From Pseudomonas baetica (lineage in GTDB: Bacteria > Pseudomonadota > Gammaproteobacteria > Pseudomonadales > Pseudomonadaceae): 64,000 bases of DNA. Numbering within the stretch: the first letter of the stretch is position 1; the number at the start of each line of letters is the position of its first letter. Location of the stretch: NCBI RefSeq assembly GCF_002813455.1, contig NZ_PHHE01000001.1, forward strand, positions 2,108,001 to 2,172,000. The letters run 5' to 3'. Below are positions 21,468 through 22,991 of the stretch, piece by piece. The notes below the pieces were generated by a model. It was given only the letters and a program-made list of their open reading frames with translations, was not told the DNA's origin and searched no databases. Both the position numbers and the translations under genes were made by a program.

Positions 21468-21551
21468 GTGGGAGCGAGCCTGCTCGCGAAGGCGTCGTGT
21501 CAGTCGACATCATCTTTGACTGAATACACCGCTTTCGCGAGCAGGCTCGCT
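21468..21551. repeat. REP pair interrupted by the IS110 element
   Basis: GTGGGAGCGAGCCTGCTCGC on the left and CTTTCGCGAGCAGGCTCGCT on the right. The right unit stops at 21551 and resumes at 23963 with CTCCCACAGG. The split point is the CT dinucleotide within GCTCGCTCCCAC. Confidence 0.9.
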
Positions 21552-21674
21552 TGTATGGTAGGACTTGAAGGGAGGAGGAGGGACAAGGCTCGATTCTGAC
21601 TGTTGACGCAGCACAGACCGTGGGAGATTTCGCCCCTCCTCCTTTCACCCAAGCGCCGATAAAGAATGTAGTGG

Positions 21675-22409
21675 TCAACTAATCCCGGACACGACGTTAA
21701 GTTTTTTCTCGGCCTGAGCTGGGGCCAGTCCGTTGTTGAATTGGTGCGGTCTAATCCAGTTGTACCGATGCATCAGGTAATGACTGATGTCGCGGTGCGC
21801 TTCTTGAGCTGTCATGTAGCCCACGGTCGGTATCCATTCAGTTTTCAAGCTGCGAAACACACGCTCCATCGGCGCGTTATCCCAGCAGTTTCCACGACGG
21901 CTCATGCTTTGGCGCATGCGGTAACGCCAGAGCCGTTGGCGAAACTGGCGACTGCCATATTGCGAGCCCTGATCCGAGTGAAACAGAAGCCCTTGAGGCC
22001 TGCCACGCTGTTCGTAAGCCATGTCCAACGCCTTGATGACCAGATCCGCATCCGGCTTGTTCGACAGCGCCCAGCCCACCACTCGGCGCGCGTAAAGATC
22101 CATAACGACAGCCAGGTAATGCCATTTCCCTTGAGCCCAGATGTAGGTGATGTCGCCACACCAGACCTGATTCGGCGCCGGCACATCAAACTCTCGATTC
22201 AATATGTTCGGAATGTCAGGCCGCTCAACCGTCGCTTGTTTGTAGGCATGTGATCCAGGTTGTTTACTGACCAACTCCAGTTCCCGCATCAGGCCTCGCA
22301 CCTTGAACCGCCCAATTTGCTCGCCGTCTTCCTGCATCATCGACACGATGCTGCGGCTACCGGCGGCGCTTCGACTTTGCGTAAACAGTTCGTTAACCAG
22401 GCTGCGCAA
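21675..22409 (-). CDS. IS3-family transposase OrfB (catalytic part)
   Basis: Integrase-core domain with the DDE residues in [21 protein letters not shown] and the Glu of [14 protein letters not shown]. The coordinates give the part from the first ATG. The frame is open further upstream to 22574, and the working enzyme is expected as an OrfAB fusion made by -1 frameshifting. It ends eight bases inside the element's right-hand terminal repeat as read on the plus strand's left side. Confidence 0.93.
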
Positions 22410-22528
22410 CCGAAGCCGCTCAACGTCTGGAGTTCGGCGCCTGAGACGATGGGCGTAGTAACACGAACGAGTGACGTCAAAGACTGCGCAAAGCCAATCA
22501 ACCGGCTCTTGGGGGCTCAGTTGATCAA

Positions 22529-22837
22529 TCAGCGCGTGCGCTCGTGCTCTTCCGACATCAAGAGCGCGGTAGCCTTTTTTAAAATGGATTTCTCCCGCTC
22601 AAGTCGAGCGATTCGAGCTTCCAATTCCTGGATTTTCTGTTGCTCTGGCGTCAGCGCTTTACTCTGCGGAGTAACGCCAGTGCGCTCCTGCTGAAGCTGA
22701 TTAACCCAGCGGCGCAACGCGGACTCAACCACACCAAGCGAGCGGCTGGCTTCGATATGGCTATAGCCTTGATCGAGCACGAGGCCTGCGGCCTCGCGTT
22801 TGAATTCAGCGGAAAAAGAACGACGTTGTTTGGTCAT
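22529..22837 (-). CDS. IS3-family OrfA (DNA-binding part) with programmed frameshift site
   Basis: 102 residues with an N-terminal helix-turn-helix ([13 protein letters not shown] through [13 protein letters not shown]) and a leucine-zipper-like helix ([17 protein letters not shown]). In the zero frame the heptamer A-AAA-AAG at 22580-22574 encodes Lys-Lys and is the standard -1 slippery sequence of IS3 elements. Slippage there enters the OrfB frame, which is open from that point. Confidence 0.93.
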
Positions 22838-22991
22838 CAGACACCTCTATCTGGCGAGCATTCTCGCCTAAATGGGTGTCCGGTTTCATTAGACCACTAC
22901 AGAATGCATCTGGCTAGACCGACGATAGGAACAAGCCTGCGCCTCTGGGTGAACCCTTCAAGTGCTCAAACCTTATCCCGGAGGAAATCCT

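Follow-up and report, generated by a model that had tools for sequence, protein, structure and literature searches.

The closest described counterparts of the locus analysed here are insertion sequences of the IS110 family. IS621 is described as inserting into REP sequences of E. coli by means of a bridge RNA (PMC11208160, PMC11208158), and covariation of guide and target across thousands of IS110 elements is reported in the first of these papers (PMC11208160), in which an extended-data legend names the bridge RNA of ISPpu10 among those drawn. ISPpu9 and ISPpu10 themselves are described as occupying REPs of P. putida KT2440, always at the same place in the repeat and with direct repeats of 2 bp (PMC1525189), and ISPpu9 has been studied further (PMC8450116). 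Elements of the IS1111 type are reported to use a seekRNA, and one of them, ISPa11, to target REPs as well; the same source reports natural redirection for the pair ISEc11/ISXne4 and for the IS110-type pair ISEc21/ISMch6 (PMC11187229). As for the targets, several published Pseudomonas REPs are described as having the head GTGGGAG or GTAGGAG and, after it, a palindromic stem that varies (PMC2817692). Our search of papers under open licences, preprints excluded and most judged by title, found none on the guides of a single IS110 clade tracking the REP variants of its hosts.

Here we describe a window of 64,000 nucleotides, part of the 6.9-Mb single-contig genome of Pseudomonas baetica. We conclude with high confidence that it contains an insertion sequence of the IS110 group, that the non-coding RNA upstream of its gene is a bridge RNA guiding it to REPs, and that the left guide of this RNA evolves together with the REPs of its hosts.

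Results

The element, its copies and its recombinase

The element lies on the plus strand between two CT core dinucleotides (21552–23962) and is interrupted by an IS3-family element. Its limits were set by the junctions common to all seven copies in the genome, of which five are intact, measuring 1173 bp between the cores, and two are split by the same IS3 element. The left end of the window copy is preceded by one half of the REP target, AGGCTCG (21543–21549), and the core CT (21550–21551), and the right end is followed by the second CT (23963–23964) and the other target half, CCCAC (23965–23969), all on the plus strand. All seven copies occupy the target AGGCTCG-CT-CCCAC, with TTCGCGAGCAGGCTCG-CT before the left end and CT-CCCAC after the right end; a short CT core in an identical, specific target with no longer target duplication, as seen in all seven, is a trait of the IS110 family. 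An initial annotation, made from the window alone, had predicted this junction, which our genome search confirmed in seven of seven copies. Every sequence that it quoted is present in the window copy, whereas the right end that it placed at 22951 in reality lies at 23962. It had also supposed that REP sites are harmless, which holds for the window copy, the only one checked, sitting between mltF and pdxJ, whose 3′ ends face it. Among plasmids, 1131 records matched, every one at less than 60% identity.

The recombinase gene (22992–23939, plus strand) is intact; its start was placed by a GGAGGA-like site, the ORF caller starting at 22962. The product matches the Pfam families DEDD_Tnp_IS110 and Transposase_20 and the NCBIfam entry 'IS110 family RNA-guided transposase' above their cut-offs, and the IS621 and ISCro4 transposases are its only PDB relatives at E up to 0.001. 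The alignment with IS621 scores 74.7 bits and, with the 2-residue numbering offset of the chain allowed for, the residues matching IS621 D11, E60, D102, D105 and S241 are kept. All the RNA features described below lie between the left end and this gene. By its sequence, then, the window element is a member of the IS110 family with a predicted RNA upstream, as in the IS110 group.

Interruption by an IS3-family element

The inserted IS3-family element (21667–22901, 1235 bp) carries its genes on the minus strand and is bordered by the target duplication GAA (21664–21666 and 22902–22904). It lies within the donor loop of the IS110 5′ RNA and breaks the left donor guide, AGAAT, which is whole in intact copies, after AGAA (21663–21666, plus strand), leaving the window copy without a continuous RNA. 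Because this copy is unable to give a complete RNA, the RNA was read from the intact copies of the same genome; the window copy could be mobile only with RNA from one of those five. The same IS3 element interrupts the donor loop in two of the seven IS110 copies, at different positions about 20 bp apart, in opposite orientations and with the duplications GAA and GGC, the second split copy being L006/L009 at 3705548–3706783 of the genome. That both insertions fall in donor loops may be chance. Of the 23 IS3 junction pairs read, just eight keep a 3-bp duplication and the remainder mostly have none, which suggests recombination between copies.

The predicted guide RNA and the ends of the element

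When an intact copy is folded, an outer stem, CTTGAAGGG/CCCTTCAAG (arms at 21564–21572 and 22954–22962; this and all the following features are on the plus strand), encloses two arms, a target loop and a donor loop. The target-loop stem, which like the outer stem was located by this fold and by the arm test described below, has its arms at 21568–21582 and 21633–21645. Inside it are the left target guide, AGGCTCG (21586–21592), identified by its covariation with the left flank; an inner hairpin, TCTG/CAGA (21594–21618); and the right target guide, GTGGGAG (21620–21626), complementary to CT-CCCAC and identified by comparison with right flanks, with the exception of G080 (see below). The donor loop is formed by 5′ arms at 21646–21656 (CACCCA, 21646–21651; GCGC, 21653–21656) and 3′ arms at 22939–22951 (GCGC, 22939–22942; TGGGTG, 22946–22951), and contains, as a sequence match, the right donor guide ACAAG (22931–22935), the complement of CT-TGT at the left end. 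Both donor guides, AGAAT and ACAAG, match the element's own ends in intact copies, and these ends hardly vary among relatives.

RNAalifold on the whole alignment returned only 16 pairs, five of them with changes on both sides, because arms of unequal length were misaligned, and we therefore used an arm-swap energy test. Own arms gave −24.9 kcal/mol compared with −21.9 kcal/mol for shuffled arms in the target-loop stem (35 distinct pairs), −11.9 compared with −10.4 kcal/mol in the donor-loop stems (30 distinct pairs) and −17.6 compared with −16.4 kcal/mol in the outer stem (49 distinct pairs), and for each of the three they beat 2000 of 2000 shuffles, in a test that takes no account of relatedness. 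Pairs kept through changes on both sides were also found in the hairpin within the target loop and in the donor-loop stem GCGC/GCGC, the latter being GCAC/GTGC in the Methyloversatilis rows. Thus the covariation of both loop stems among relatives, as predicted from the window alone, is seen both in two-sided changes and in the arm-swap test. Additional sequence 5′ of the target loop is present in the Methyloversatilis rows and in L089, the Nevskiaceae row, and absent from the other rows. At the gathering level, Rfam returned only a C4 antisense RNA across the window (RF01695; 12785–12877, minus strand, 71.5 bits) and no bridge-RNA match.

The right end spans 23 bp after the stop codon. Its last bases, CATAGAAT (23955–23962), recognised by sequence comparison, comprise the donor half and one half of a subterminal inverted repeat. 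This repeat, beside the donor core, covaries, being TATGGT/ACCATA in 109 elements and TATGTT/AACATA in 54; it is 6 bp long in 118 of 185 elements, 7 bp in 45 and 4–5 bp in 22, and is kept in all but 22 of the 185. Subterminal inverted repeats are described as 2–3 bp long in the IS110 group and 7–17 bp in IS1111 (PMC11208160), and the 6–7-bp repeat found here falls between the two. Just inside the right end, part of the clade has a hairpin, GTTGAGGGCTTCCCCTCAAC in the window (23935–23954): among 61 distinct right ends, 34 have a fold that ranks within the top 5% of shuffles and others are without the hairpin, and compensatory variants occur (GTTGAGGG/CCCTCAAC, GTTGCAGG/CCTGCAAC and GTTTGGGG/CCCCAAAC). 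A −10-like TAGAAT was also seen by eye at the right end.

The REP target and the left guide

The target AGGCTCGCTCCCAC occurs 846 times in the P. baetica genome and its reversed control not at all, while the versions beginning AAGCCCG, AAGCCAG and AAGCTCG occur 597, 111 and 17 times, respectively. The description of the target as the most abundant REP of the genome is accordingly right among the four CTCCCAC variants counted. The cut falls at the base of the REP stem, with the left guide spelling the variable stem and the right guide the head.

In order to compare guides with flanks, relatives were collected by their transposase, ignoring flanks: 79 loci, of which most are from Pseudomonas and the few others from Methyloversatilis and from two MAGs, one of Nevskiaceae and one gammaproteobacterial, and further loci from 398 genomes of the genus, 165 of them with a match. 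A further 107 stretches were fetched and, after removal of duplicates, there were 193 rows with a recognised left end and 17 loci without; two L031 rows with N in the flank were removed, leaving 191 to be scored. In 160 of these, six or seven of the seven left-guide positions agree with the element's own left flank. With slack in the register, there were seven matches in 100 elements, six in 60, five in 23, four in 5, three in 2 and two in 1; at fixed register, the numbers for seven down to one match were 99, 52, 17, 8, 3, 10 and 2. When the 26 guide classes were each compared with their own commonest flank, the mean was 5.96 matches, as against 4.72 (sd 0.16) after shuffling, and at fixed register 5.73 against 4.28; none of 20,000 shuffles reached the observed class mean with either register. 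Several classes match their flank at only five of seven positions. The set includes L085 and L086, whose flanks do not match the guide, and the result stands with or without both.

As shuffles are blind to descent, a tree was computed from 95 distinct transposase/guide rows by a quick method (21 of its 92 inner branches are under 80), on which the left guide changes at least 27 times. Eighteen path-disjoint pairs differing in guide could be drawn from it; their own pairing of guide and flank was better in 12, worse in one and tied in five (two-sided sign test of 12 against 1, p about 0.003), and over 200 randomised pairings the mean was 11.1 better and 1.0 worse. This pooled test was used because independent-pair tests taken position by position, which showed no significance, had few pairs for each position (at most 10 among those listed).

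The comparison of homologous elements proposed in the initial annotation thus shows, by shuffles, by tree pairs and by the within-genome classes described below, that changes of guide track changes of target. The same annotation had named unmatched flanks beside an unchanged loop as evidence against itself, and these exist in part: some relatives with the AGGCTCG guide lie in AAGCTCG or in flanks with one or two mismatches. A tolerance of mismatches would allow such flanks, and they agree with it. Tolerance of wobble pairs was considered and is unsupported, guide G/target A and guide U/target C together accounting for 26 mismatches against 21 of the reverse transitions and 39 transversions. 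Separately, at L062 (about 1302–1318) the left flank repeats the right flank (CTCCCACATTTGGTAG on both sides), has no REP stem and is unlike the guide; this is perhaps a rearranged insertion.

Choice of REP class within genomes

The sites of four REP classes were counted in 36 genomes holding 87 elements whose guide is among the four; seven with other flanks were left out and 80 scored. The insertion lies in the REP class spelled by the guide in 65 of the 80, where abundance predicts 41.3 (P about 2e-12 if the copies are independent), and 19 of the 24 genome/guide groups are above expectation and five below. In G398, with guide AAGCCAG, four of five insertions are in a class that makes up 42 of 907 counted REPs. 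On the other hand, all six insertions with the AGGCTCG guide in G267, G205 and G290 are in AAGCTCG, which outnumbers AGGCTCG in those genomes.

That the guide always equals the commonest REP of its host was rejected: another counted class is commoner in G398, G367, G296, G039, G100, G214, G205 and G267, and the AGGCTCG copies of G290 also contradict it. All four copies in G290 (L124, L166, L167 and L168) lie in AAGCTCG, with the guide AGGCTCG in three and AAGCTCG in one; L167 and L168, in one genome, have guides that differ by a single base. It is possible that G290 is a snapshot of a guide change.

The right guide

The right guide was compared in 183 rows with both sides read. GTGGGAG is accompanied by the flank CTCCCAC in 170 of 176 elements, and GTAGGAG by CTCCTAC in six of six, from two lineages (G094 and L089); AAGTTCGCTCCTAC sites number 124 in the G094 host and no more than two in any one of the 35 further genomes searched. 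The right guide of G080, GTGAGAG, predicts CTCTCAC, and this prediction, partly blind in that one of the five flanks had been listed beforehand, failed, since all five (L137 and L245–L248) read CTCCCAC.

A second element in the same genome

The P. baetica genome also contains an IS1111-like element, with a 370-residue IS110-family transposase and the inverted repeat TGGACTCGCCC/GGGCGAGTCCA, in nine places (L021–L029; for example L024, about 733–2171). All nine copies stand directly before another repeat, TAGGAGCTGCC..GGCTGCG, and the non-coding region downstream of the gene holds AGCTCCTA, which is complementary to the repeat flank. Two RNA-guided elements may therefore divide two repeat families within one genome.

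Discussion

The anatomy of the RNA, the junctions, the covariation of guide with target and that of the stems are all observed here, and the reading as RNA-guided insertion into REPs put forward in the initial annotation has proved largely right, given both kinds of covariation and the predicted junction in seven of seven copies. In the mechanism that we propose, the target loop would pair, around the CT core, with both halves of a Pseudomonas REP, its left guide reading the variable stem and its right guide the conserved head, and the donor loop would pair with the element's own joined ends, so that the DEDD/serine recombinase could insert the excised circle at the core. By analogy with IS621, the RNA would be made, be bound by the recombinase and direct strand exchange. 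Across hosts, the left guide would evolve toward a REP stem class present in the host.

It might be argued that REPs are recognised by the recombinase alone, or through the fold of their palindrome, and that the RNA loops have no part in the choice of target. The target is indeed a REP-like CT-CCCAC or CT-CCTAC in nearly all relatives, and ISPsy8, of the IS3 family, is described as also entering REPs, with no such RNA known for it from that description. However, the REP subclass used follows the guide and not abundance (65 of 80 against 41.3), as the four insertions of G398 in a class of 42 among 907 REPs illustrate, and we consider this explanation very improbable. Slightly more improbable still is that guide and flank agree through common descent only, related elements having been inherited in related hosts with related REPs. 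The shuffles do ignore relatedness, and several guide classes are one clade each, but the path-disjoint pairs (12 better, one worse, five tied) and the minimum of 27 guide changes both come from the tree, and the within-genome test takes the REP counts of each host as given.

The guide-like stretch might also be a fragment of REP copied in by recombination with the flank and without any guiding role. Conversion is conceivable, since left guide and left flank are on the same strand and 36 bases apart, end to start; yet only about seven bases match, inside loops that are otherwise unchanged, the matching frame is identical in 23 of 25 guide classes, and the right guide is the complement of its half-site rather than a copy of it, which makes this the least credible of the three and close to negligible. 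Taking the RNA as a guide, we lean slightly towards seeing the clade as a natural record of an RNA-guided transposon tracking the repeats of its hosts, in which the left guide has been rewritten at least 27 times and the right one seldom; genomes such as G290 would then show the order of events, a shift of host REPs tolerated at one mismatch and afterwards a change of guide.

RNA-guided, REP-targeting IS110 systems are already known, with IS621 and ISPpu10 as precedents. The present element shares with IS621 an IS110-group recombinase with DEDD and serine residues, an upstream bridge RNA with two loops, a CT core and REP targets, but it is only distantly related in sequence (74.7 bits) and uses REPs of another genus; furthermore, an outer stem here surrounds both loops, and the Pseudomonas rows are without the extra 5′ sequence of Methyloversatilis. 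ISPpu10 and ISPpu9, compared by their published description, are likewise IS110-family elements in Pseudomonas REPs at a fixed position, although target variant and host differ. Elements of the IS1111 type, such as ISPa11, also combine RNA-guided target choice with REP targets; as described, however, their seekRNA lies downstream of the gene, their inverted repeats are usually 11–13 bp and the order of their guides is reversed. Judged by sequence, what the present clade appears to add to these systems is a new member, a covarying subterminal repeat of 6–7 bp and an extensive series of natural guide changes that track host REPs. The papers examined document natural retargeting through individual pairs of relatives and through pooled covariation; the present clade by itself provides about 26 guide classes, each with its natural target, and REP classes have been counted in many of its hosts. 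With such a set one can test how fast, in what order and with how much tolerance of mismatches guides are reprogrammed in nature, and recombination assays can draw on its ready-made pairs of guide and target.
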